Shown piece after piece: positions 10,761 through 32,886 of a stretch of 64,000 nucleotides of DNA; position 1 is the first letter of the stretch; the number at the start of each line of letters is the position of its first letter. The notes under the pieces were generated by a model that had not been told where the DNA came from, did not search any database, and saw nothing but the letters and a program-made list of their open reading frames with translations. Location of the stretch: positions 2,108,001-2,172,000 of the forward strand of contig JAJEKV010000011.1 in assembly GCA_021234155.1 (NCBI GenBank), given 5' to 3'. The position numbers were made by a program, and so were the translations under genes. Source of the DNA: Isoetes taiwanensis (Eukaryota; Streptophyta; Lycopodiopsida; Isoetales; Isoetaceae).

Positions 10761-11200
10761 AGGATATGAGGTTGTTGTAGCCATTTTTTATTGTGTTATA
10801 AAGGTTTATGTAATGTCTTTCGATTTCGTTTGCCTTTTTCTTGCTTTTGGTTTCTTCTAAGAGGTCGATGCAGAAGTTTTTTTTCGTACGGTTTGTGCTT
10901 GTTAACATCGGCTGCCATTTTGAGATTTGGTTTTGATTTGTGCTATTTGTGCCTAGTTGATAGTTTGTTGTTTGTCCTACCTATTTCTTCTTGTTCTTAT
11001 TGCACGTTAGGCAATATATCTTTATCGTAGGTCTTATTTTACCTGCGGCATTGTTAATTGTGTTAGAGTTATTTGTTGTGATTGTGATGTAGATGTTTTT
11101 GTTTTTTCCTTATTTTTTAGTTTTAGCTTAGGTGTGTTTATAATAATTAAAATAGCATTCGGGATTGGGATCAAAATTGCCCTGTATTATGTTCAACAAT

Positions 11201-11980
11201 TTAAGTAATGAGTAGGTTAGCACATGGGGGGTCTGGAAAGAAGTCAATGTTTCCAAACAATTCCAAGGCAAGCTTGTCATCAAAAGCAAATATCGCCTTT
11301 TCAATGGTCATTGGATTGCTCGTTTTGTGATCGGGTTGTATAATTTCATTAGCGATGTCATCATTTGTTGTCCTGACTGCTTGTTTAGAGATAGACATTC
11401 ATCTATGGTCAAGTTATAACTGATGTACAATATGGAAGCTTGGTAGATGGTGATGCCCTCTGAAATGGTTGCAAGGTGTTGTATTCCTTGTTTTCTTGTC
11501 ATGCTGTCGTAGTTCGCCTCGATATTCTTTTTCCATAGGATGTGTTTGACAAATTTTGTGAAAAGTATTCTTAGTTGATATGTGTATTCAGTGTTATTTT
11601 TTTTTTTTTTAATTTTTAGTTCTTCGTTGTTTTCTTGCTTGGAGGCTTTCATTTGCTCGGTTGCTTCTTATGTGAAGCTTTGGAGTTTTGAAATTGTTTG
11701 CCAACCTTTTATGTATTTGTTAGGCTTGATTCCACAAATGTTTACATAGCGCATCGTGGAGCTGTCTAGTGTTTTAGTTGTTGCGCTAGACGATGATGGC
11801 TTCGCCTTTTTGTTTTGTTATTATTTTTTATATCTTCGTAATATGTCTTGTAGAACTACAAGTACTTACCTGGCTAGCTTGTGGACGTTTCTTTGATGTG
11901 TTCTTGTCGGTCTTGCTGGTGCTGCCTTTGTTATTGGCCATTGTAATTCTTCAATATCAAGGAGTTTAGCTTAGTTTTTT
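11201..11980 (-). pseudogene. ORF-B of the helicase element, left outer copy
   Basis: This is the minus-strand mirror of the copy at 15492-16340. It includes the N-terminal exon (MANNKGSTSKTDKN), the small intron, and the body with QASILYISYNLTIDECLSL. The C-terminus is frameshifted (PITKRAIQ instead of DHKTSNPM). Function unknown. Confidence 0.55.
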
Positions 11981-12002
11981 TTTTCCTCATAAGTGCACAC
12001 CG

Positions 12003-12290
12003 ATAGAAGAAATACTAGAAACAAAAACTATTTTGATATTCGGTGACCATGCCCAACTTCCACCAATCTGTCACCACAAAAGACAAGAAAAATCCATCTA
12101 TAGCATATGCCCCCTCTCAAACACCATTCACTATCAACAAGCCAAAAAGTACCACCTACATTACTCCCACTCATCCGATCCAATATACGCAGGATATGAG
12201 GTTGTTGTAGACGTTTTTGGTTGTGTTGTAAAGGTTTGTGTAATGTCTTTCGATTTCGTTTGCCTTTTTCTTGCTTTTGGTTTCTTCTAA
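12003..12290 (+). pseudogene. Helicase fragment with motif III, left arm
   Basis: The segment encodes MIFGDHAQLPPICHHKRQEK, which is Pif1 motif III and its flank, and continues into the antisense region shared by all copies. It lacks motifs I to II. Truncated. Confidence 0.6.
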
Positions 12291-12676
12291 GAGGTCGATG
12301 TTGAAGTTTTTTTTGTACGATTTGTGCTTATTGACATCTGCTGCCATTTTGAGATTTGGTTTTAATTTGTGCTGTTTGTACCTAATTGATAGATTTGTTG
12401 TTTATCCTACGTATTTCTTGTTGTTCTTATGCACGTTAGGCAATATATCTTTATCGTAGGTCTTATTTTACCTGTGGCATTGTAGATGATTTGTTTTTTG
12501 TGATGTAGATATTCTTGTTTTTTTCCTTATTCTTTAGTTTTAGTTTAGACGTGTTTATAATAATTAAAATAACATTCGAGATTGGGATCAAAATTGTACT
12601 GTATTATGTTGAACAGTTTAAGTATTTTTGAATAGTTTAGCACATGAGGAATATGAAAACGAAGTTTTTAAGGTTA

Positions 12677-13008
12677 TTAACTGTCATCACACGGTCGGTC
12701 TGGAAAGAAGTCAATGTTTCCAAACAATTCCAAGGCAAGCTTGTCATCAAAAGCATATGTCGCCTTTTCGGTGGTCATTGGATTGCTCGTTTTGTGATCG
12801 TGGTTGTATAATTTCATTAGCGTTGTCATCATTTGTTGTCCCAACTGCTTGTTTAGAGATAGACATTCATCTATGGTCAAGTTGTAACTAATGTACAATA
12901 TGGAAGCTTGGTAGGTGGTGATGCTCTCTGAGATGATTGCAAGGTGTTGTATTCCTTGTTTTTTTGTCATGCTGTCGTAGTTGGCCTCGATATTCTTTTT
13001 CCTTAGGA
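12677..13008 (-). pseudogene. ORF-B C-terminal part, left inner copy, cut by an LTR
   Basis: It encodes LRKKNIEANYDSMTKKQG through to NIDFFPDRPCDDS and stop. Its 5' side is cut at 13008 by the LTR that begins TGTCATCTGCC. The matching ORF-B N-terminal side appears at 32887, on the far flank of the gypsy element. Confidence 0.6.
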
Positions 13009-13788
13009 TGTCATCTGCCAATGAAGGTACAAAAGTTGCAAAATACTTCTAAAAAGGTTTGCACTGCTCGGATAGAAGGCTGTCAAGATTGAAGAATCGG
13101 AGCAGGGGAACTGGTGCATCCGAGCCATCTGTGCAGGATTTGGTTCCAGGAATAAAAACCCACTCTCTGTTATAAAACGGAATCTAGAAGGGAGGAATCA
13201 AGAAGCCGGAAACATGGCTACCCATTTGTTATACTCCACGACCATGGGAAAGTTACAGAAATCGCCCTTTGGGGAGGTAACCTATGAAGGCCAGCTTAGC
13301 ATGTGCAATCGCGCCAGTAGGAAGACGGAGCCAAGAGAGTGGGAAGAATTTAAAAGGCGTATAGCTGCTGTGCGAACCTACCCAACCACTACTTACTCAA
13401 AGCTTATAAGCTCATACCCTAATCGGAAGCGCCCTGTGGCCAAGAGATCATGGCCGGCAGGTTGTGGGCCAAGGAAACGATATGGGGAGGGTACCTCGAC
13501 TGACCCATCTCAAGAAAAATGAGACGTGGGAATATTGATGACGTGGCATGTCCATGTGGCATATTCGATGATGTGGCGTGCCACGAGGGCGATCTGCCTA
13601 GGTGGCAAATACAAAATTCAAAGGGTATACGAAATTGAAGGGGTGTGATGATGTAGCAATGACGTGGCAGGGGACTATAAATATGTAATCACGGTTGGGG
13701 TTTTTCCAACCATCAAAGTGTGCAATAAAGTTTGATTTTTCGTTCTAGTCTCCTTGGGTGTTCTCTTTCACATCACTACACTTCTCTC
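13009..13788 (+). mobile_element. Gypsy LTR, plus orientation, with internal deletion
   Basis: It starts TGTCATCTGCCAATGAAGG and ends CTACACTTCTCTC. It carries the LTR ORF (13214-13522), repeated TGACGTGGC motifs, a TATAAATA box at 13676 and AATAAA at 13724. Compared with the LTR at 31198-32886 it lacks about 900 bp between GCAGTGCAAACC and TTTAGAAGTATTTTGC. Its orientation is opposite to that of the gypsy body. Confidence 0.75.
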
Positions 13789-14417
13789 GAGAGAAGTGTA
13801 GCGCCGCGACCCAAGAGAAGTGTAGCGAATATGCCACATGGACATGCCACGTCATCAATATTCCCACGTCTCATTCTTCTTGAGATGGGCCAGTCGAGGT
13901 ACCCTCCCCATATCGTTTCCTTGGCCCACAACCTGCCGGCCATGATCTCTTGGCCACAGGGCGCTTCCGATTATGGTATGAGCTTATAAGCTCTGAGTAA
14001 GTAGTGGTTGGGTAGGTTCGCACAGCAGCTATACGCCTTTTAAATTCTTCCCACTCTCTCGGCTCCGTCTTCCTACTGGTGAGTAAAGCTTCTGCCACAA
14101 ACCATCCTTCTCCGCGATTGCACATGCTAAGCTGGCCTTCATAGGTTACCTCCGCAAAGGGCGGTTTCTGTAACTTTCCCATGGTCGTGGAGTATAACAA
14201 ATGGGTAGCCCTGTTTCCAGCTTCTGGATTCCTCCCTTCTGGATTCCGTTTTATAACAGAGGGTGGGTTTTTATTCCTGGAACCAAATCCTGCACAGATG
14301 GCTCGGATGCACCAGTTCCCCTGCTCCGATTCTTCAATCTTGACAGCCTTCTATTCGAGCAGTGCAAACCTTTTTAGAAGTATTTTGCAACTTTTGTACC
14401 TTCATTGGCAGATGACA
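13789..14417 (-). mobile_element. Gypsy LTR, minus orientation, R/U5 side deleted
   Basis: It mirrors the LTR at 13009-13788 and includes the LTR ORF (13871-14200, with the GEGWFVAEALLTS segment that the left copy lacks). The part carrying the TATA box and poly(A) signal has been replaced by a short doubled LTR end (GAGAGAAGTGTAG at 13789, AGAGAAGTGTAG near 13814). It has the same orientation as the gypsy body, so it may derive from its 3' LTR. Confidence 0.7.
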
Positions 14418-14749
14418 TCCTAAGGAAAAAGAATATCGAGGCCAACTACGACAGCATGACAAAAAAACAAGGAATACAACACCTTGCAATCATCTCAGAG
14501 AGCATCACCACCTACCAAGCTTCCATATTGTACATCAGTTACAACTTGACCATAGATGAATGTCTATCTCTAAACAAGCAGTTGGGACAACAAATGATGA
14601 CAACGCTAATGAAATTATACAACCACGATCACAAAACGAGCAATCCAATGACCACCGAAAAGCCGACATATGCTTTTGATGACAAGCTTGCCTTGGAATT
14701 GTTTGGAAACATTGACTTCTTTCCAGACCGGCCGTGTGATGACAGTTAA
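14418..14749 (+). pseudogene. ORF-B C-terminal part, right inner copy
   Basis: Mirror of 12677-13008, encoding ILRKKNIEANYDSMTKK to the stop at 14749. It is joined directly to the LTR end at 14417 and is followed by the common spacer to about 15060. Confidence 0.6.
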
Positions 14750-15136
14750 TAACCTTACAAACTTCGTTTTGATATTTCTCATGTGCTAAACTATTCAAAA
14801 ATACTTAAACTGTTCAACATAATACAATACAATTTTGATCCCAATCTCGAATGTTATTTTAATTATTATAAACACACCTAAACTAAAACTAAAGAATAAG
14901 GAAAAAAACAAGAATATCTACATCACAAAAAACAACTCATCTACAATGCCACAGGTAAAATAAGACCTACGATAAAGATATATTGCCTAACGTGCATAAG
15001 AACAACAAGAAATACGTAGGATAAACAACAAATCTATCAACTAGGTACAAACAGCACAAATCAAAACCAAATCTCAAAATGGCAGCAGATGTCAATAAGC
15101 ACAAATCGTACAAAAAAAAACTTCAACATCGACCTC

Positions 15137-15400
15137 TTAGAAGAAACCAAAAGCAAGAAAAAGGCAAACGAAATCGAAAGACATTACACAAACCTTTACA
15201 ACACAACCAAAAACGGCTACAGCAACCTCATATCCTGCGTATATTGGATCGGATGAGTGTCTGATGGAGTAATGTAGGTGGTACTTTTTGGCTTGTTGAT
15301 AGTGAATGGTGTTTGAGAGGGGGCATAGGCTATAGATGGATTTTTCTTGTCTTTTGTGGTGACAGATTGGTGGAAGTTGGGCATGGTCACCGAATATCAA
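15137..15400 (-). pseudogene. Helicase fragment with motif III, right arm
   Basis: Mirror of 12003-12290 on the minus strand, again starting MIFGDHAQLPPICHHKRQEK. A few residues differ from the left arm (IYSLCPLSN against IYSICPLSN; two extra residues before HSSDPI). The opposite strand encodes the lysine-rich frame NRTKKNFNIDLLEETKSKKK. Confidence 0.6.
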
Positions 15401-15491
15401 AATAGTTTTTGTTTCTAGTATTTCTTCTATCGGTGTGCACTTCTGAGAAAAAAAAATCTAAGCTAAACTCCTTGATATTGAAGAATTACAA

Positions 15492-16340
<849 letters not shown>

Positions 16341-16346
16341 AATTAC

Positions 16347-16612
16347 TTAAATTGTAATTGTTTGTTCGCATAAGGTCTTGTTTGTTCGCTCTGCTTGTCC
16401 ATTCGCTCGTGGATGGTAGGGACTACTCTTTCGATGTTTTATTCGATACATGGTGGTCATTGTCTCGATTAACTCATTCAAGAAATGCTTACCCCGATCG
16501 CTTACCAACTCCACTGGGCATCCAAACCTGATTATGATGTTTTCATAAAGAAACGTTGCCACTGCCGCTCCAGTGTCTTCACGGAACGCCTTAGCTTCTG
16601 CCCATTTGTTAC
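16347..16612 (-). pseudogene. Gypsy integrase, C-terminal part of the catalytic core (detached)
   Basis: The minus strand encodes KWAEAKAFRED and FLYENIIIRFG. It then has the second catalytic Asp in LVSDRGKHFLNE and the catalytic Glu in YHPRANGQAERTNK, the last two residues of the DDE triad. The first Asp (WGIDFVGP) lies 9.6 kb away at 26190-26519. The reading frame, orientation and residue order show that the two pieces were one integrase, split by the block 16609-26204. The fragment ends at 16347 next to the palindrome P1 arm. Confidence 0.85.
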
Positions 16613-17168
16613 GTAATGTCTATATCTACACCCCTACACCATCCTTAAAAAAACATTAACACAAACCATTAACATACAATAAACATTATTAACACAAACC
16701 ATTGCATTTGACACATTTAAATTAAAATCCCCCTTAAACCCCCTTTGGTTTGGGTGCACATTCACACGGGGGGTTACTTCGGGCAACGAGAGCTGTCGGA
16801 TGGGCATATTTGCCCTTTATTCCAAGATCTGGACCGTACATAGCGATTCTCGTTTGTGGCGTATGCATGTACAAGTTTTTGTATACTGTATATTAAGGTT
16901 TGCAAAATACTATAAGGTTTGAGAGAATGTACTTAATGGTGTTAATTTTGTACATGTATTATAAATTTTTTGATTTTTTTGAGGCTCTCGCTGCCCTACG
17001 TAACCCCTCGTGTGAATACGCACCAAAACCAAAGGGGGTTTAAGGGGGATTTTAATTTAAATGTGTCAAATGCAATGGTTTGTGTTAATAATGTTTATTG
17101 TATGTTAATGGTTTGTGTTAATGTTTTTTTAAGGATGGTGTAGGGGTGTAGATATAGACATTACGTAA
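16609..17168. mobile_element. Long-TIR MITE A, copy 1
   Basis: About 560 bp bounded by TTACGTAATGTC and GACATTACGTAA, with terminal inverted repeats of more than 120 bp. It includes a core CCCCCTTTGGTTTGGGTG and ATTCACACGGGGGGTTAC. No coding capacity. It sits at the junction with the gypsy integrase, sharing TTAC with it. Confidence 0.85.
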
Positions 17169-19016
17169 TACTCTGATGATGGATGGAAGGGCACTAAAAA
17201 ATCCCAGTTTCACTTCTGCATGTAATATTGTGCATGTAATATCTGTGCATGGATATTCCTTAGTGCATGTAATATTGTGCATATAATATCTGTGCATGGA
17301 GATTCCTTAGTGCATATGAATCATAATAGAAAATGGTAGTAGAGCTAAAAACAAGCCATTACATTCGAAGAGAAACGAGTTGCTACAAAAAACCCAAAAG
17401 TTATTTGTAAGTTCACAGTGACCAAGTAGAAAATAAGTTGTATTCCATAAGAATTGAGCCTGAAAATCTTCAAGTCTGAAACAAGGGAATATAGTTCATA
17501 GTTCAGTACTCATTACATTTGTATTAGCATGTATAGTGGTGAACGAAAGGAGTAAGGACAGATGTATAAATGAAAATGTTCTTACCAACAACAGATCTGA
17601 ATAGCACAAAGCAGAACATGTAGAATATGGAAAGCACTAAAAAATACCCATAAGTAATCACCCAGTATGGAGCATCTCCAAGACCATGCATTTTCATCAT
17701 GATCCGAAGGGTTATTTTACTTTTCATATACTAGAGATGTCAAAACAACCTGCGAAGGGCGAAAAAAAAATTTAATTGATTATGCTTTGTGTAACAACAC
17801 AGTTCAAAGCTGGAACTAAATCTACTAGCAGACAGAAAGCATAAAATCGTTTGTACCTCCATGTGCATGTTCAAAGCAGGTGGTATTTTTCTATTTGTTA
17901 TCGGGACATATTACTGTAAAGTCTACATGTATAGTAATAGGGAATCGTTTACAGAGTCTGGTCCAAATTTTAGCAGATACATCACTTATGTTGCAGCACA
18001 AGTCTAAAAGATATTGCTCTTGCAAGATGGAGGAGAAAATAAAGTAAAAGGATAGGCCACTTACAGGAAACAGAAGTTGAATTACCCACATGAAAAAGAG
18101 CGGGCCTAAGAGACTAGTAAAGTCTAATCGAGTTTTTGATTCTTGCTTTGGCATTTCCTTAACAAACCATAATGGCAACTGTGCATCTGGCCCTTGTAAT
18201 GACCTTAAAAATGCCTGAGCAACCTACAAAACATCCATACCAGTGTTCAGCAAAAGCAAGTAAAACTGATATGTGACCACTACAGTGGCAGAAAATATTT
18301 CTAATCATTATAATAAACAGCCAAATGGCATCCTATTTCTATACACCGCAAAATAGCGCAAGAACTACCAGATTCATGCTTCTTGAAGCCCGAACTAAAG
18401 CAGGAGCAGAACCAAAACTGTCATTTCGGAAGGTTGCATTATATGAAATAATGACATTAAGTTTGTCCACAGACGTGTCTTGAAAATCATATGCTGCATT
18501 CCATTATAAGATGGTCTATTGTGAACAGAAATATCACAATTTTACCTTCTCCTGCCATACAGACAACTCCTCTTCTGGATACCATTGCTCTTCCAGGAAT
18601 AATAAAATTAACCCTATTGGGTGCATTTCTGATAAGCCGCACAGCACTGGAGGATCCAGGAATTCTTCGGAGACCAGAGTATGGGGCTGCAACAAGTCGA
18701 TTATTTGCAAGTCGAGTATGCCCTAATCGATTTTATAGCTCTGTGCAAATATGGATCTGGCTCTGCTCTAAACACAGTTGCTACCTTCGACCAGTCGAAT
18801 CATTGGATTTGCCTCTTCCAGCTGAACGGTTCTTCTAAAATGCCGAAAGAGGGCAAAGCTTTTTTCATTTCGTAGCCTGCTTGCTTGATTCTTTGCTCTT
18901 ACCGGAATGGTATATCGAAGAAAGGCAGCGGATTTTCCATTGGCTTTTCAGTCATGATCCTTCTGCTTTTCTGCCTTATGGCAAGGATCTCTTTTGTCAT
19001 GGAGCTACCCTTACTT
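17169..19016 (-). pseudogene. Captured ABCA-transporter exons, unit 1
   Basis: This is the minus-strand copy of the segment described at 19736-21583, with the same exons, introns, nonsense codon and one-base insertion. It lies between MITE A1 and MITE B1. Confidence 0.8.
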
Positions 19017-19735
19017 GCTACAGGTGATGAAAGCCTCAAATGAATTCTAGTTTTTTTTCTGGTTTGAATTCTAAAATTTTTATCCAATTAACATCCAACC
19101 ATTAAATCCCCCAACACATAACAACCAACACATAACAACCATTGACATTAACAACCAACACATAACTACCATTGACATTAATTAACACAACCATTGGGTC
19201 CAACACATTTAAATTAAAATCCCCCTCAAACCCCCTTTGGTTTGGGTGCATATTCACACGGGGGGTGACTCCGGGCAACGAGAGCTGTTGGATAGGCATA
19301 TTCACCCCTTATTCCTTAATCTACACCGTACGTAAAGTTCCTCGTTTGTGGGGTATGCAAGTACAATATTTGCTATACTGTATAACAAGATTCGCAAAAT
19401 ACTATAAGATTTCAAGCGAAATACTATATGACGTTGATTTCGTACGTGCAAAATACAATTATGAGGGCTCTCGCTGCCCTACGTCACCCCCCGTGTGAAT
19501 ATGCACCCAAACCAAAGGGGGTTTGAGGGGGATTTTAATTTAAATGTGTTGGACCCAATGGTTGTGTTAATTAATGTCAATGGTAGTTATGTGTTGGTTG
19601 TTAATGTCAATGGTTGTTATGTGTTGGTTGTTATGTGTTGGGGGATTTAATGGTTGGATGTTAATTGGATAAAAATTTTAGAATTCAAACCAGAAAAAAA
19701 ACTAGAATTCATTTGAGGCTTTCATCACCTGTAGC
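19017..19735. mobile_element. Long-TIR MITE B, copy 1
   Basis: 719 bp bounded by GCTACAGGTGATGAAAGCC and its reverse complement, with very long terminal inverted repeats. The inner core (CCCCCTTTGGTTTGGGTGCA, ATTCACACGGGGGGTGAC) is shared with MITE A, so A and B are one family. Short tandem ACATAACAACCA-like repeats occur in the TIR. Confidence 0.85.
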
Positions 19736-21583
19736 AAGTAAGGGTAGCTCCATGACAAAAGAGATCCTTGCCATAAGGCAGAAAAGCAGAAGGATCATGA
19801 CTGAAAAGCCAATGGAAAATCCGCTGCCTTTCTTCGATATACCATTCCGGTAAGAGCAAAGAATCAAGCAAGCAGGCTACGAAATGAAAAAAGCTTTGCC
19901 CTCTTTCGGCATTTTAGAAGAACCGTTCAGCTGGAAGAGGCAAATCCAATGATTCGACTGGTCGAAGGTAGCAACTGTGTTTAGAGCAGAGCCAGATCCA
20001 TATTTGCACAGAGCTATAAAATCGATTAGGGCATACTCGACTTGCAAATAATCGACTTGTTGCAGCCCCATACTCTGGTCTCCGAAGAATTCCTGGATCC
20101 TCCAGTGCTGTGCGGCTTATCAGAAATGCACCCAATAGGGTTAATTTTATTATTCCTGGAAGAGCAATGGTATCCAGAAGAGGAGTTGTCTGTATGGCAG
20201 GAGAAGGTAAAATTGTGATATTTCTGTTCACAATAGACCATCTTATAATGGAATGCAGCATATGATTTTCAAGACACGTCTGTGGACAAACTTAATGTCA
20301 TTATTTCATATAATGCAACCTTCCGAAATGACAGTTTTGGTTCTGCTCCTGCTTTAGTTCGGGCTTCAAGAAGCATGAATCTGGTAGTTCTTGCGCTATT
20401 TTGCGGTGTATAGAAATAGGATGCCATTTGGCTGTTTATTATAATGATTAGAAATATTTTCTGCCACTGTAGTGGTCACATATCAGTTTTACTTGCTTTT
20501 GCTGAACACTGGTATGGATGTTTTGTAGGTTGCTCAGGCATTTTTAAGGTCATTACAAGGGCCAGATGCACAGTTGCCATTATGGTTTGTTAAGGAAATG
20601 CCAAAGCAAGAATCAAAAACTCGATTAGACTTTACTAGTCTCTTAGGCCCGCTCTTTTTCATGTGGGTAATTCAACTTCTGTTTCCTGTAAGTGGCCTAT
20701 CCTTTTACTTTATTTTCTCCTCCATCTTGCAAGAGCAATATCTTTTAGACTTGTGCTGCAACATAAGTGATGTATCTGCTAAAATTTGGACCAGACTCTG
20801 TAAACGATTCCCTATTACTATACATGTAGACTTTACAGTAATATGTCCCGATAACAAATAGAAAAATACCACCTGCTTTGAACATGCACATGGAGGTACA
20901 AACGATTTTATGCTTTCTGTCTGCTAGTAGATTTAGTTCCAGCTTTGAACTGTGTTGTTACACAAAGCATAATCAATTAAATTTTTTTTTCGCCCTTCGC
21001 AGGTTGTTTTGACATCTCTAGTATATGAAAAGTAAAATAACCCTTCGGATCATGATGAAAATGCATGGTCTTGGAGATGCTCCATACTGGGTGATTACTT
21101 ATGGGTATTTTTTAGTGCTTTCCATATTCTACATGTTCTGCTTTGTGCTATTCAGATCTGTTGTTGGTAAGAACATTTTCATTTATACATCTGTCCTTAC
21201 TCCTTTCGTTCACCACTATACATGCTAATACAAATGTAATGAGTACTGAACTATGAACTATATTCCCTTGTTTCAGACTTGAAGATTTTCAGGCTCAATT
21301 CTTATGGAATACAACTTATTTTCTACTTGGTCACTGTGAACTTACAAATAACTTTTGGGTTTTTTGTAGCAACTCGTTTCTCTTCGAATGTAATGGCTTG
21401 TTTTTAGCTCTACTACCATTTTCTATTATGATTCATATGCACTAAGGAATCTCCATGCACAGATATTATATGCACAATATTACATGCACTAAGGAATATC
21501 CATGCACAGATATTACATGCACAATATTACATGCAGAAGTGAAACTGGGATTTTTTAGTGCCCTTCCATCCATCATCAGAGTA
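19736..21583 (+). pseudogene. Captured ABCA-transporter exons, unit 2 (sense copy)
   Basis: Spliced exons match the plant ABCA (ATH-type) transporter family, full-size or half-size ABC proteins that move lipids across membranes. Visible exons include one with DKLNVIISYNATFRNDSF (about 20250-20390), one with LPLWFVKEMPKQ and LDFTSLLGPLFF (20529-20690), one with LRIMMKMHGLGDAPYWV (21003-21166), and one with FRLNSYGIQLIFYLVTV (21277-21410). Splice junctions are normal, so DNA rather than cDNA was captured. The third exon has an in-frame TAA after SLVYEK and one extra C a few bases later. No ATP-binding cassette is included. An upstream exon-like stretch (19740-20230) is not one I can assign. Confidence 0.8.
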
Positions 21584-22143
21584 TTACGTAATGTCTATAT
21601 CTACACCCCTACACCATCCTTAAAAAAACATTAACACAAACCATTAACATACAATAAACATTATTAACACAAACCATTGCATTTGACACATTTAAATTAA
21701 AATCCCCCTTAAACCCCCTTTGGTTTTGGTGCGTATTCACACGAGGGGTTACGTAGGGCAGCGAGAGCCTCAAAAAAATCAAAAAATTTATAATACATGT
21801 ACAAAATTAACACCATTAAGTACATTCTCTCAAACCTTATAGTATTTTGCAAACCTTAATATACAGTATACAAAAACTTGTACATGCATACGCCACAAAC
21901 GAGAATCGCTATGTACGGTCCAGATCTTGGAATAAAGGGCAAATATGCCCATCCGACAGCTCTCGTTGCCCGAAGTAACCCCCCGTGTGAATGTGCACCC
22001 AAACCAAAGGGGGTTTAAGGGGGATTTTAATTTAAATGTGTCAAATGCAATGGTTTGTGTTAATAATGTTTATTGTATGTTAATGGTTTGTGTTAATGTT
22101 TTTTTAAGGATGGTGTAGGGGTGTAGATATAGACATTACGTAA
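21584..22143. mobile_element. Long-TIR MITE A, copy 2 (inverted relative to copy 1)
   Basis: 560 bp, the exact reverse complement of copy 1 in its interior, bounded by the same TTACGTAA ends. Here both flanks are the ABCA segment (TCATCAGAGTA on each side, inverted), so it forms the turning point of palindrome P3. Confidence 0.85.
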
Positions 22144-23990
22144 TACTCTGATGATGGATGGAAGGGCACTAAAAAATCCCAGTTTCACTTCTGCATGTAA
22201 TATTGTGCATGTAATATCTGTGCATGGATATTCCTTAGTGCATGTAATATTGTGCATATAATATCTGTGCATGGAGATTCCTTAGTGCATATGAATCATA
22301 ATAGAAAATGGTAGTAGAGCTAAAAACAAGCCATTACATTCGAAGAGAAACGAGTTGCTACAAAAAACCCAAAAGTTATTTGTAAGTTCACAGTGACCAA
22401 GTAGAAAATAAGTTGTATTCCATAAGAATTGAGCCTGAAAATCTTCAAGTCTGAAACAAGGGAATATAGTTCATAGTTCAGTACTCATTACATTTGTATT
22501 AGCATGTATAGTGGTGAACGAAAGGAGTAAGGACAGATGTATAAATGAAAATGTTCTTACCAACAACAGATCTGAATAGCACAAAGCAGAACATGTAGAA
22601 TATGGAAAGCACTAAAAAATACCCATAAGTAATCACCCAGTATGGAGCATCTCCAAGACCATGCATTTTCATCATGATCCGAAGGTTATTTTACTTTTCA
22701 TATACTAGAGATGTCAAAACAACCTGCGAAGGGCGAAAAAAAAATTTAATTGATTATGCTTCGTGTAACAACACAGTTCAAAGCTGGAACTAAATCTACT
22801 AGCAGACAGAAAGCATAAAATCGTTTGTACCTCCATGTGCATGTTCAAAGCAGGTGGTATTTTTCTATTTGTTATCGGGACATATTACTGTAAAGTCTAC
22901 ATGTATAGTAATAGGGAATCGTTTACAGAGTCTGGTCCAAATTTTAGCAGATACATCACTTATGTTGCAGCACAAGTCTAAAAGATATTGCTCTTGCAAG
23001 ATGGAGGAGAAAATAAAGTAAAAGGATAGACCACTTACAGGAAACAGAAGTTGAATTACCCACATGAAAAAGAGCGGGCCTAAGAGACTAGTAAAGTCTA
23101 ATCGAGTTTTTGATTCTTGCTTTGGCATTTCCTTAACAAACCATAATGGCAACTGTGCATCTGGCCCTTGTAATGACCTTAAAAATGCCTGAGCAACCTA
23201 CAAAACATCCATACCAGTGTTCAGCAAAAGCAAGTAAAACTGATATGTGACCACTACAGTGGCAGAAAATATTTCTAATCATTATAATAAACAGCCAAAT
23301 GGCATCCTATTTCTATACACCGCAAAATAGCGCAAGAACTACCAGATTCATGCTTCTTGAAGCCCGAACTAAAGCAGGAGTAGAACCAAAACTGTCATTT
23401 CGGAAGGTTGCATTATATGAAATAATGACATTAAGTTTGTCCACAGACGTGTCTTGAAAATCATATGCTGCATTCCATTATAAGATGGTCTATTGTGAAC
23501 AGAAATATCACAATTTTACCTTCTCCTGCCATACAGACAACTCCTCTTCTGGATACCATTGCTCTTCCAGGAATAATAAAATTAACCCTATTGGGTGCAT
23601 TTCTGATAAGCCGCACAGCACTGGAGGATCCAGGAATTCTTCGGAGACCAGAGTATGGGGCTGCAACAAGTCGATTATTTGCAAGTCGAGTATGCCCTAA
23701 TCGATTTTATAGCTCTGTGCAAATATGGATCTGGCTCTGCTCTAAACACAGTTGCTACCTTCGACCAGTCGAATCATTGGATTTGCCTCTTCCAGCTGAA
23801 CGGTTCTTCTAAAATGCCGAAAGAGGGCAAAGCTTTTTTCATTTCGTAGCCTGCTTGCTTGATTCTTTGCTCTTACCGGAATGGTATATCGAAGAAAGGC
23901 AGCGGATTTTCCATTGGCTTTTCAGTCATGATCCTTCTGCTTTTCTGCCTTATGGCAAGGATCTCTTTTGTCATGGAGCTACCCTTACTT
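22144..23990 (-). pseudogene. Captured ABCA-transporter exons, unit 3
   Basis: The same segment as units 1 and 2, minus orientation. It keeps the nonsense TAA but lacks the one-base C insertion, so the frame around LRIMMKMHGLG is closer to the ancestral gene. Other differences from units 1 and 2 are at about 22761 (TTCGTG for TTTGTG), 23029 (TAGACC for TAGGCC) and 23380 (GAGTAG for GAGCAG). Confidence 0.8.
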
Positions 23991-24709
23991 GCTACAGGTG
24001 ATGAAAGCCTCAAATGAATTCTAGTTTTTTTTCTGGTTTGAATTCTAAAATTTTTATCCAATTAACATCCAACCATTAAATCCCCCAACACATAACAACC
24101 AACACATAACAACCATTGACATTAACAACCAACACATAACTACCATTGACATTAATTAACACAACCATTGGGTCCAACACATTTAAATTAAAATCCCCCT
24201 CAAACCCCCTTTGGTTTGGGTGCATATTCACACGGGGGGTGACGTAGGGCAGCGAGAGCCCTCATAATTGTATTTTGCACGTACGAAATCAACATCATAT
24301 AGTATTTCGCTTGAAATCTTATAGTATTTTGCGAATCTTGTTATACAGTATAGCAAATATTGTACTTGCATACCCCACAAACGAGGAACTTTACGTACGG
24401 TGTAGATTAAGGAATAAGGGGTGAATATGCCTATCCAACAGCTCTCGTTGCCCGGAGTCACCCCCCGTGTGAATATGCACCCAAACCAAAGGGGGTTTGA
24501 GGGGGATTTTAATTTAAATGTGTTGGACCCAATGGTTGTGTTAATTAATGTCAATGGTAGTTATGTGTTGGTTGTTAATGTCAATGGTTGTTATGTGTTG
24601 GTTGTTATGTGTTGGGGGATTTAATGGTTGGATGTTAATTGGATAAAAATTTTAGAATTCAAACCAGAAAAAAAACTAGAATTCATTTGAGGCTTTCATC
24701 ACCTGTAGC
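23991..24709. mobile_element. Long-TIR MITE B, copy 2 (inverted relative to copy 1)
   Basis: 719 bp, the reverse complement of copy 1, with the same GCTACAGGTGATG ends. Its right flank is not the ABCA mirror but different sequence (TTTTGAATTTC), so this is where the palindrome chain stops. Confidence 0.85.
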
Positions 24710-25050
24710 TTTTGAATTTCATCACAATAAAACAAATAGAACATAAGTAAAACTTACCATAAAGATAGAGCAGATTAATCCCATTATTCTGAAAGTCATA
24801 AAGTTTGCAACACCCATACACAAACATTTTTCAATTGGAATTTAACAGCAGCCTTTGGCCTCCATGGATTCTTGTGGTGAGAAACCAAAGTGGGAAACTT
24901 TTCTGCTTGTTAGCACAAGGATCTAGAAGCCTTGGAATTTGCTTAATAACTGCCTCAAAATCTAAAAATGCATAGTAATTTTTTGCAAGCTTCATTCGGA
25001 ATGAGCCATAAAACAATATCCAATAGCGCAATCCTGTATTAATCAGCTAC
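24710..25050 (-). other. Exon-like stretch of unknown origin
   Basis: A minus-strand frame (24831-25031) with KQIPRLLDPCANKQ and a GTAAGT donor near 24759 suggests an exon, possibly of the captured gene's upstream part. I cannot assign it to ABCA or any other family. Confidence 0.25.
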
Positions 25051-25054
25051 CAAA

Positions 25055-25458
25055 CCCGGCCGAAAAATTGATGTTTTAGCATAGATAACTTAACCAAACA
25101 TATCCACATCATACACTATCAAAAAGATCTCGGAGAGAGCTTTCCAAGGCAATAAAAATCATCTAAAACAGAGCTCTGGATCAAAAGTTATGATACGAAA
25201 TGTGTTGCGGGGAAATCAATCACTATATGCGCCCTTCAAGCCCTTCATGTGCCCAACCCGGCCGAAAAATTGCTGTTTTAGCATAGATAACTTAACCAAA
25301 CATATCCATATCATACACTATCAAAAAGATCTCGGAGAGAGCTTTCCAACGCAATAAAAATCATCTGAAACAGAGCTCTGGATCAAAAGTTATGATAAGA
25401 AATGTGTTGCCGGCGGGGAAACTGCACTACATGCGCCCTTCAAGCCCTTCATGCGCCC
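25055..25458. repeat. 202-bp tandem repeat, two copies
   Basis: Units begin at 25055 and 25257 with CCCGGCCGAAAAATTG and both contain AAAAGATCTCGGAGAGAGC. They are followed by a 19-bp repeat (CGCCCTTCAAGCCCTTCAT). Confidence 0.85.
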
Positions 25459-25495
25459 TTCAAGCCCTTCATGTGCCCATTATGCACCACACACA

Positions 25496-26204
25496 CAAAA
25501 AGAGGGCTTTTGTTGTGAGCCATTGGTTGTTGACCATTATGCACCACACGCACAAAAAAATGGCTTTTGTTGTGAGCCATTGGTTGTTGACCATTGAAAA
25601 AAAAATGCTAAAATCAATGGCTCAGAAATGGTGCACTCTAGATGTACGCATTAGTACATCCATTTGAATACATCACGAAATCATAGGAAAACCTTAGTGA
25701 AAAGCGTACAAAAACACAAAGAAAACCCCCTGTTATTATGCTACATATTCAAATGTGAACTTCCGAATTTACTGGCCGATTTTGCAAAGCCCCAGAAGGC
25801 GTCATAGCCAGAGTGCATCACTGAACTCCAAGGCTACATAGCTAGAATACATGGCTGATCCAAGTTCATCCTGACTTCCATGAATTTTTTGACCCTAGAT
25901 GCACAGCCCGATGCTTGGAGACTAAAGCCTGGATCTGCACTGGTGCTTTACAGCAAAGAATGCCCTAAAATGCTATCCACGAGGCTTGCATATTCAACCC
26001 CTAAAATAAAAAGAGGGCTTTTGTTGTGAGCCTTTGGATGTTGGACCATTGAAAAAAAAAAGCTAAATCAACGACTAAGAAATGGTGCACTCTAGATGTA
26101 CGCATTAGTACATCTATTCAAATACGCCATGAAATCTTAGGAAAACCTTTGTGAAAAGCATACAAAAATACAAAGAAAACCCCCTGTTATTATGCTACAT
26201 ATTC
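25496..26204. repeat. 62-bp tandem repeat and a larger direct duplication
   Basis: A 62-bp unit containing GGCTTTTGTTGTGAGCCATT is repeated at about 25500-25600. The block 25496-25754 recurs at 26007-26204, both ending TGTTATTATGCTACATATTC. The second copy abuts the gypsy integrase break, with TAC and ATATTC at the junction. Confidence 0.8.
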
Positions 26205-31197: not shown

Positions 31198-32886
31198 GAG
31201 AGAAGTGTAGTGCTGTGAAAGAGAACACCCAAGGAGACTAGAACGAAAAATCAAACTTTATTGCACACTTTGATGGTTGGAAAAACCCCAACCGTGATTA
31301 CATATTTATAGTCCCCTGCCACGTCATCGCCACATCATCACACCCCTTCAATTTCGTATGCCCTTTGAATTTCGTATTTGCCACCAAGGCGGATCGCCCT
31401 CGTGGCATGCCACGTCATCGAATATGCCACATGGACATGCCATGTCATCAATATTCCCACGTCTCATTCTTCTTGAGATGGCTCAGTCGAGGTACCCTCC
31501 CCATATCGTTTCCTTGGCCTACAACCTGTCGGCCATGATCTCTTGGCCACAGGGCGCTTCCGATTAGGGTATGAGCTTATAAGCTCTGAGTAAGTAGTGG
31601 TTGGGTAGGTTCGCACAACAGCTATACGCCTTTTAAATTCTTCCCACTCTCTCGGCTCCATCTTCCTACTGGTGAGTAAAGCTTCTGCCACAAACCATCC
31701 TTCTCCGCGATTGCACATACTAAGCTGGCCTTCATAGGTTACCTCCCCAAAGGGCGGTTTCTGTAACTTTCCCATGGTCGTGGAGTATAATAAATGGGTA
31801 GCCCTGTTTCCGGCTTCTAGATTCCTCCCTTTTGGATTCCATTTTATAACAGAGGGTGGGTTTTTATTCCTGGAACCAAATCCTGCACAGATGGCTCGGA
31901 TGCACCAGTTCCGGCCTGCTCCGATTCTTCAATCTTGACGGCCTTCTATCCGGGCAGTGCAAACCCTGACAATCTCCCGATTCCCTTAATCGGCCTGACA
32001 CAAGCCCATTTTCTTCAGAATCGAACCCTGACTCCAATCTTTTGCATTGCCATGGCGGATTTAGACTCAAGCCGTCCTATTGTTCTTAAAACAAGTTCTT
32101 CGATGGCTGATTTAAGCCATATCCGACCACTCCTTCTTCTTCAGTCCCGATTTGCTTCTGATTTCCTTCAAGCGATCCTTCCCTTGTCCTTTAATCAAGT
32201 CGACTCTGCTTTTGATCTGTGCCCACCGATCTTTAGAAGATCCTTGCCAATCCAGAAAGCCATGGCTTTTCGCCCAATCAGCCCGGCCTAGGAGTCCGTC
32301 CGTTCACAACCCTGGTCGAAAACATTTCCCCTTTTGTTACAATTTGCCCATGTTGACAATTTCCTGTTTTCTTCCTTTTTCCCAGTGGTTCCAAACTCGA
32401 CCTTGCCCCTCGCCATGATTCTTTCTTTGCCATTCCTTTCTCCCTAGGGTCTTTTTACTTTTCAATGGTTTTTAGTCTCCATTCTCGGCTTGCACCCTTG
32501 TATATATTCTTTGCCGACAATCTTCTCTTTTCTTCCATGGTTAATTTCACTTCCATGGTTCTTCTCAAGGGTTTCTCTCCCTTTAATTCTCACATCTTCT
32601 CGTCTCGTTACTTGACCCCTTTTCCTTTGAGGCCTTTATTTTGCCACGTTATCTCCCTTTTTCCACCATAGGTATTTTTCTTCTATGGGGTTCTTCTCCC
32701 GACAACCCTGTTGCCATAACAGTCCTTCCCATATCTTTCTCATGGGTTATTCGTAGCGCATTTCTCAGGCTACTTGCTTCCCTTTCCATAACTGTCTAGC
32801 TTTCTTTCTTAAGCTAGCAGTTTGCCATGGTAATTTGCATATTTAGAAGTATTTTGCAACTTTTGTACCTTCATTGGCAGACGACA
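31198..32886 (-). mobile_element. Gypsy 5' LTR, full length, 1,689 bp
   Basis: On the minus strand it runs from TGTCGTCTGCCAATGAAGG to CTACACTTCTCTC. U3 contains an open frame (31464-31775) that is also open in the other two LTR copies. Several CACGTCATC/TGACGTGGC repeats lie between that frame and the TATA box. About 900 bp between 31958 and 32840 is absent from the two LTRs in palindrome P1. The right flank (GATGTGTTTGACAAAT) is ORF-B sequence of the helicase element, so the gypsy landed in that element. Confidence 0.8.
31257..31310 (-). promoter_or_regulatory. LTR TATA box and poly(A) signal
   Basis: On the minus strand CTATAAATATG at about 31302-31310 is a TATA box, and AATAAA at 31257-31262 is a poly(A) signal about 45 nt downstream, marking a short R region. 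Both are conserved in the LTR at 13009-13788. Confidence 0.65.

Follow-up and report, generated by a model that had tools for sequence, protein, structure and literature searches.

Interstitial inverted triplications are a published architecture whose junctions fall at interrupted inverted repeats (PMC4689423, PMC10766183, PMC10766186), and the literature found on the subject places inverted triplications mainly in yeast and in human disease. In the yeast SUL1 triplication ascribed to ODIRA, as outlined in PMC4689423 and PMC10766183, three tandem copies with an inverted middle one are joined at pre-existing chromosomal interrupted inverted repeats. The locus analyzed here lies in a 64,000-nucleotide stretch of the Isoetes taiwanensis genome (contig JAJEKV010000011.1, positions 2,108,001 to 2,172,000, forward strand; hereafter the window) and shares these traits. 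Unlike in yeast, both hinges belong to a dispersed hairpin family of a large eukaryotic genome; their arms have 143-253 perfect nucleotides and their spacers 181-190 nucleotides. The small inverted triplications of yeast rad27 and of cancer have the same DUP/INV/DUP layout and a small scale, but the units described in PMC13334657 average 148/160/148 bp with 6-bp junctions, against about 2.5 kb and long arms here. Human DUP-TRP/INV-DUP rearrangements, as presented in PMC10766186 and PMC4352052, also carry an inverted middle copy and junctions within inverted repeats, yet the named class has flanking duplications. The foldback inversions through single-stranded DNA hairpins in PMC7467729 are likewise hairpin-directed inverted duplications and resemble the mirrored tips discussed below; those are gross rearrangements, induced breaks included, whereas the copies here are interstitial. 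By titles and opening lines of abstracts, the literature found to join inverted triplication, plants and transposable elements dealt with chloroplast genomes and with copy-number variants in evolving populations. In the window, a dispersed hairpin-ended repeat supplies both hinges, and the genome is large and repeat-rich.

The assembled sequence is the only record of the locus used here, and on it we consider a real, recent, in-place inverted triplication to be the probable explanation, formed when replicating strands switched templates at two interrupted inverted repeats that were already present. Positions 16609-24709 read A-S-B-S'-A'-S-B', with A and B standing for hairpins and S for a segment of ~1.85 kb present in three copies, the middle one inverted; the repeated piece measures ~2.5 kb. 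The units of human inverted triplications are far larger than those of the window. An earlier sequence-only reading had proposed this order and its coordinates, with three alternating segment copies and two hinges, and both were confirmed base by base. The outer copy of hairpin A (16609-17168, +) has arms at 16609-16793 and 16984-17168 around a loop at 16794-16983, and is followed by the first, gene-like unit of S (17169-19016, +). The hinge copy of hairpin B (19017-19735, +; arms 19017-19285 and 19467-19735, loop 19286-19466 in (+) orientation) leads to the inverted unit S' (19736-21583, -), which is identical to the first over 1848/1848 bp. Next come the hinge copy A' (21584-22143, -; loop 21769-21958, (-)), the third unit of S (22144-23990, +) and the outer copy B' (23991-24709, -; loop 24260-24440, (-)), so that the loops run A+ B+ A- B- across the locus. 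Beyond B' lie the C2 body and the nearly constant end X1 of a B-type element (24710-25749, +), nested in an A-type element whose remainder, including end X2, adjoins the gypsy integrase (25750-26204, +). When the 8101 bases were shuffled 20 times by mononucleotide, exact inverted repeats reached at most 12-16 nt per shuffle, and no Rfam family matched anywhere in the window at gathering thresholds. The segment had been taken for "ABCA", a label that finds no support in Pfam or PDB sequences, neither of which matched the two ORFs tested. Near-perfect inverted copies of a gene-like segment might also be a source of long double-stranded RNA.

Both turning points fall inside long interrupted inverted repeats with loops of 190 (A) and 181 nt (B). 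The arms of A are identical at 178/185 positions, all seven differences lying within 42 nt of the loop, and the perfect stretch of the arms extends over 143 nt in A and 253 nt in B. A' is an inverted copy of A with its loop included (0/190 differences from the reverse complement of the outer A loop), as is B' of B (1/181 loop differences). The turning points had been placed exactly at the hinge centers; the loop centers do lie where claimed, at 19376 and 21863.5, but the switch point itself cannot be assigned to them, since the arms are mutually inverted over those perfect stretches and any switch inside gives the same arms. The mirrored tip of the window's A ends in 7 nt (ATTACGT) common to target and template in two of four empty gypsy copies, with less in the other two, and that of B has 6 nt (GCTACA) in common with relatives L011 and L028 and 5 with L009. 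The palindromic TTACGTAA, at first taken for a target-site duplication of A, may or may not be one, as empty gypsy copies reveal part of it to be gypsy sequence.

Diverged relatives provide the flanking states. In L009, a relative that lacks the triplication, the left outer junction is retained beside just one A-S: it matches window positions 15136-19022 in one alignment at 92.5% and then resumes at 25747. Among 40 scored matches its place is the only one besides the window to span the gypsy|A junction. The right outer junction is present in L013 and, at 99%, at C985:9581452-9582232; hairpin B with this same right flank is whole at C985:9581452 and halved in L013, while L009, L011 and L028 show the insertion site without B. 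The retention of the left junction with a single A-S in L009, and of the right one in L013, argues for an inverted triplication in place. Three features of an ODIRA-type product were accordingly found: three copies with an inverted middle, outer junctions unchanged by comparison with L009, L013 and C985, and interrupted inverted repeats pre-existing at both junctions, for A through L009, which has it with the same flank and S, and for B through relatives elsewhere. The S|B junction, searched as a 25-base pattern with up to two mismatches, occurs three times in the assembly, always in the window; as no relative with a single S|B was found, the unexpanded A-S-B state of the locus is one that we infer.

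Before the event the locus would have read gypsy-A-S-B-C2. A copying strand entering one hairpin would have changed over to the inverted arm complementary to it and retraced the segment in reverse; a second switch at the other hairpin, followed by a return to the original path, would have left the outer junctions unchanged and given A-S-B-S'-A'-S-B'. We infer the coupling of this step to replication, the order of the switches and the enzymes. Fold-back template switching, the mechanism first suggested from the letters alone, is the best-supported class, given the single-copy left flank in L009, the right junction in L013 and the older U-turns at other hairpin copies; an obligatory snap-back through the loop is left unsupported by the mixed B loops. 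As one form of template switching, ODIRA proper, that is, origin-dependent amplification through a putative extrachromosomal hairpin-capped intermediate re-integrated by homologous recombination, is conceivable though short of probable. Product architecture and hinge type agree with the accounts in PMC4689423, PMC10766183 and PMC10766186, and the outer junctions are common to relatives, but arms of 143-253 perfect nucleotides with spacers of 181-190 nt exceed the values stated for yeast junctions (5-6 bp and 40-80 bp). Another form, which we hold only tentatively, is self-templated: a nascent strand folds at B, recopies S, folds at A, copies its own product and rejoins the chromosome. From an ancestor A+ B+ this predicts the very order seen, A+ B+ A- B-, and of the 26 B places that are one-sided and have a readable loop, 18 carry it (+) next to C2 and eight (-). 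Nevertheless, in the five closest such relatives the loop is (-) in three (C985:9581452 and C1098, 99%; C1060, 98%) and (+) in two (C1084:2197989 and C457, both 98%), and a B(-) ancestor would demand two extra loop flips. Flipped loops also occur in 2/10 S-bearing copies, or 3/11 if L026, with a loop match of just 31 nt, is counted, and in 3/14 A-family copies. The A loop of L009 is (+). If the ancestors were A(+) B(-), the hinge B loop would have an orientation at odds with a simple snap-back, and an opposite-strand switch inside the first arm fits; if the ancestral B was (+), a self-templated chain would fit all four loops. The orientations are thus ambiguous and appear to single out no one route, and loop polarity was discarded as proof of a self-templated chain because flips are common and close relatives mixed.

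The divergence between copies bears on the explanations outside template switching. Unit 1 (16609-19285) and the reverse complement of unit 2 (19467-22143) differ at four of 2677 positions; these lie no farther than 16 nt from the B loop and match the differences between B's own arms. Unit 3 differs from both by three substitutions and one one-base deletion in S, plus one substitution in the B loop, and at 4/4 of the sites that set its S apart it has the L009 state. Such a 4-0-0 split is unlikely from one event followed by random mutation (about 0.04, hand calculation), so a single event has to be supplemented by gene conversion, a second allele or an assembly mixture. An assembly or library artefact, in which molecules that had folded at the hairpins into palindromic chimeras entered the assembly as three units and the unit 3 differences represent a second haplotype, is to our judgment unlikely. 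Hairpins do favor palindromic chimeras, units 1 and 2 agree exactly in S as expected of a fold-back read, and all three S|B junctions of the assembly lie here, which leaves no unexpanded copy to compare. However, unit 3 differs from unit 2 at four sites in S, and two chimeric turns at two different hairpins would be required inside a 24.3-Mb contig. Furthermore, at two other U-turns involving these hairpin families the identity between arms is just 94% and 97%, unlike in a read chimera, which indicates that hairpin-hinged palindromes exist in the genome. Raw reads would be expected to confirm the three units. A further alternative is ectopic recombination on sister chromatids between hairpin arms in inverted orientation, followed by gene conversion between the arms of the palindrome. 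It could draw on the 143-253 perfect bases per arm, and the loop flips common in relatives make arm-arm exchange probable. Yet if two inverted repeats on the same chromatid cross over, the result is only an inversion, and two coordinated exchanges would be needed for a triplication, which renders this route improbable. That separate element copies inserted one after another in alternating orientation can hardly be credited, even for a repeated family that nests in itself: every unit has the same S-A and S-B junctions, the ground on which we rejected this explanation, S is 99.8-100% identical, and the next full-length or kilobase-long S matches in the assembly stand at 77-94%, only pieces of ~190-220 bp reaching 97-99%. 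As to age, the S copies differ at 0 and 4 positions against 3.7-5% between stretches taken as gypsy LTRs; judged by this divergence the triplication is recent, younger than the surrounding gypsy-type element. With unit divergence so far below that of the presumed LTRs, an origin as a by-product of gypsy reverse transcription was rejected.

Template switching at these hairpins seems to have left further traces. In some relatives the flank is mirrored beyond the hairpin over about 40 to more than 500 bp, two of them having arms 94-97% identical: in L013 S is mirrored around A (arms 567/574 bp, 94%), and in L053 C2 is mirrored around B (arms 675/682 bp, 97.1%). An arm plus C2 occurs on both sides of the B loop at 5/38 places outside the window, that of L053 included. 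Arms extend at least 36 bp past the shared core in 7/20 fetched A-family copies, which is no genome frequency, as the 20 loci were taken from 40 scored matches to a query with mirrored arms; the remaining fetched loci were chosen for holding S, gypsy or C2. Compared with the other mirrored copies, the extensions are best matched by their own partner in seven of eight (these seven plus the window's A), L042 giving a tie; against all 45 fetched loci this holds for 5/8, with L035 tying with its sibling L046 and L037 (one arm) and L042 failing. A single palindromic master with variable truncation is disfavored, since copies mirror different private flanks (L034/L050, L038, L045, L013, L053); for L035, L037 and L042 alone it is possible. 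The window holds the single triplication seen, the other loci being single U-turns. From their sequences these older U-turns look real, and copying seems to be reversed onto itself by hairpin DNA. Diverged relatives keep the flanking states together with a graded series of shorter U-turns. With so many copies, a single assembly could yield counts of fold-back frequency and age, so that template switching driven by hairpins is open to direct testing.

The hinges had been described as long-TIR MITEs, a class marked by two precise ends and a target-site duplication, and here A and B part from it. Fetched relatives show a longer element in which the hairpin forms the variable end and the opposite end (X) is nearly constant, and in 13/13 fetched loci, the window not among them, no stretch of at least 7 nt is common to the hairpin edge and the X end; duplications below 7 nt lie beneath the reach of this test. 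A and B are the terminal hairpins of mobile elements that seem to be one-ended and form a repeated, self-nesting family, as with the B-type element inside the A-type one; 40 copies were scored per hairpin family, beside 2846 and 1157 further candidates from a first look that went unscored. Helitron 3'-end variation and one-ended IS91 transposition, as treated in PMC4778049, offer a parallel in a constant end, a variable end near a hairpin and the carriage of gene fragments. In contrast to the termini given there, the X ends, judged by eye, show neither 5'-TC nor CTRR-3' and no A|T insertion was seen, and the hairpin is about 460 bp. In a search for a Helitron RepHel gene, Rep domains proved abundant in the assembly (150 scored matches, all over cut-off, of 1813 candidates), and the search revealed no link between them and A- or B-type elements. 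Among the literature matches listed, titles and abstract starts named no hairpin-ended elements with mirrored flanks. We put forward, as a speculative and rather doubtful extension, that copying in a one-ended family with a large terminal hairpin starts at X, turns at the hairpin, mirrors its own element variably and joins the target through a few matching bases, the triplication being the same process through nested A and B. The X end reads TACATATT, the bases outside it vary, and an X-type end is followed by ATATT in 19/24 ends.

Comparison of the window sequence with itself gives the order A-S-B-S'-A'-S-B' at 16609-24709, where A and B are long interrupted inverted repeats (hairpins with a loop), S is the segment of about 1.85 kb between them, and a prime marks an inverted copy. 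The chain of three alternately oriented copies proposed by the sequence-only reading is sound, both the order and the identity of the units having been re-read in the sequence. Units 1 and 2 are perfect inverted copies except for B's own arm differences close to the loop, and unit 3 differs by three substitutions and a 1-bp indel in S and by one base in its B loop. Such an arrangement is not a chance product, since the longest inverted repeats in 20 shuffles reached only 12-16 nt.

The triplication is located inside a nested set of repeats. The surrounding minus-strand element is one that we take, from its domains, to be of gypsy type; in Pfam, its integrase zinc-binding and reverse transcriptase pieces score above the curated cut-offs, and its integrase core and gag pieces below them. 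We presume 31198-31965 to be its LTR, because an inverted and a direct copy of this stretch, 95.0-96.3% identical to it, lie at 13056-13788 and 13826-14370, respectively. The integrase is interrupted, its halves ending at 26203 and 16615, positions only 0-2 bases apart in four insert-free copies (L029-L032; L numbers denote relative loci from the same 1.66-Gb assembly). The integrase halves are separated by an A-type element, composed of hairpin A, segment S and an end, X2. This element in turn received a second insertion between 19022 and 25747, of B type, with its own hairpin (B), body (C2) and end (X1), and the B-free version of this site is present in L009, L011 and L028. The X ends, one per nested element, are direct repeats (25554-25750 and 26008-26204), 89.9% alike. 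The ORFs in S, which we take to resemble a plant ABCA transporter, gave no match in either Pfam or PDB.

The relative L009 provides clues on the order of events. It matches 15136-19022 in a single alignment (92.5%) and then resumes at 25747, with gypsy, A and S each in single copy and neither B nor the triplication. Of the best 40 scored matches, only the window itself and the L009 place run across the left outer junction. The right one is preserved in L013, along with C2 and half of B. Because L009 keeps the left junction and L013 the right, both predate the triplication, which arose between them. Divergence is 3.7-5% between the presumed LTRs but amounts to either no change or four changes among the 1.85-kb S copies, so that the triplication is much younger than the gypsy-type element. 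The gypsy with its inserted element exists as two diverged copies, in the window and at L009 (C1034:1708000-1717900), with both flanks in common, perhaps through segmental duplication or as a mobilised chimera.

Most of the 20 fetched A-family copies have a shared flank on one side of the hairpin and locus-specific DNA on the other, and in seven of the 20 the arms overrun the core by 36 bp or more. The mirrored length is about 87 in L035 versus about 3 in L046, despite some 1.1 kb in common at 98.8%. L037 (mirrored for about 119) has around 0.75-1.0 kb at 93-96% in common with L040, L044 and L048, where the mirrored extension is absent or next to absent. When eight mirrored copies were compared with one another, a copy's own two extensions were closest to each other in seven; against all 45 fetched loci they remained the best match in five. 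Of the other three, L035 tied with L046, a sibling copy, and neither L042 nor, for one arm, L037 passed. The differing mirrored lengths at a common flank, together with this own-extension matching, point to repeated and independent U-turns at the hairpins, not every copy proving one. The B family agrees: arm and C2 occur on both sides of the B loop in 5 of the 38 places examined outside the window, and in one of these, L053, the arms are 97.1% identical over about 680 bp.

In S-bearing and B-type elements, it is the hairpin end that varies between copies. The hairpin breaks off within the near arm in L016, within the loop in L011 and L025, and within the far arm in L021; L012, L017 and L019 have all of it, and in L013, L053 and A of the window the mirrored sequence continues past the arms. 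The far end is nearly constant. GCTAC and then ATATT are found at 19 of 24 X-type ends, and the sequence beyond differs from locus to locus, except in L014, L015 and L027, where it is hairpin core. X ends joined straight to hairpin cores occur in L014, L015, L020, L027 and L040, as if elements had been placed head to tail. A target duplication of at least 7 nt common to hairpin edge and X end was found at none of 13 loci tested. Helitron Rep domains are plentiful in the whole assembly (at least 150 scored matches over the cut-off, among 1813 candidates).

The loops of the window read, from left to right, A(+), B(+), A(-), B(-). Among S-bearing relatives the A loop is (+) in eight (L009, L012, L014, L015, L017, L019, L020, L025) and (-) in two (L011, L021); L026 offers only a 31-nt match, in the (-) sense, and L013 was left out, having S on both sides. 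Over the A family, 11 of 14 copies with a clear shared-flank side are oriented as the outer A and three are flipped, six copies mirrored on both sides being left out. The 38 B places comprise 18 one-sided with loop (+), eight with loop (-), one of which (on contig C1040) rests on 46 nt, seven without a readable loop and the five two-sided; the five closest one-sided places with a readable loop are three (-) and two (+). The order in the window is reachable without an extra flip by either of two histories. An ancestor with A(+) and B(+) would have undergone a self-templated chain; alternatively, starting from A(+) and B(-), an opposite-strand switch would have occurred in B's first arm and a second switch in A's last arm.

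The chief remaining risk is that the assembly created the triplication. At four sites in S (17709, 17788, 18056 and 18407) units 1 and 2 agree and unit 3 differs, carrying the L009 state at all four. Most other relatives also carry this state at 17709 and 17788, and those read at 18056 and 18407 carry that of units 1 and 2. This pattern could reflect palindrome-arm conversion, copying from another allele, or a mixture in the assembly.

As a product class, the inverted triplication is already known. Yeast origin-dependent inverted-repeat amplification (ODIRA), with its hairpin-capped intermediate, gives products of the same architecture as the window triplication, with junctions at interrupted inverted repeats (PMC4689423, PMC10766183, PMC10766186). 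Small inverted triplications (PMC13334657) and hairpin-mediated foldback inversions (PMC7467729) are on record, as are variable 3' ends and one-ended transposition in Helitrons (PMC4778049). What sets the window case apart is its pair of hinges, along with the graded series of U-turns that recurs at these hairpins; the available text of these ODIRA, triplication, foldback and Helitron papers describes no case in which both hinges are mobile-element hairpins, in a genome of this kind.

A second palindrome occupies 11196-16355, where the gypsy 3' region is mirrored about its presumed LTR (arms 11196-13567 and 13826-16355, hinge 13568-13825; main pieces 96-98% identical). Since part of it, 16004-16328, is present twice in opposite orientations, about 3 kb apart, on contig C1034 beside L009, this palindrome may be older than the split between the window and L009.
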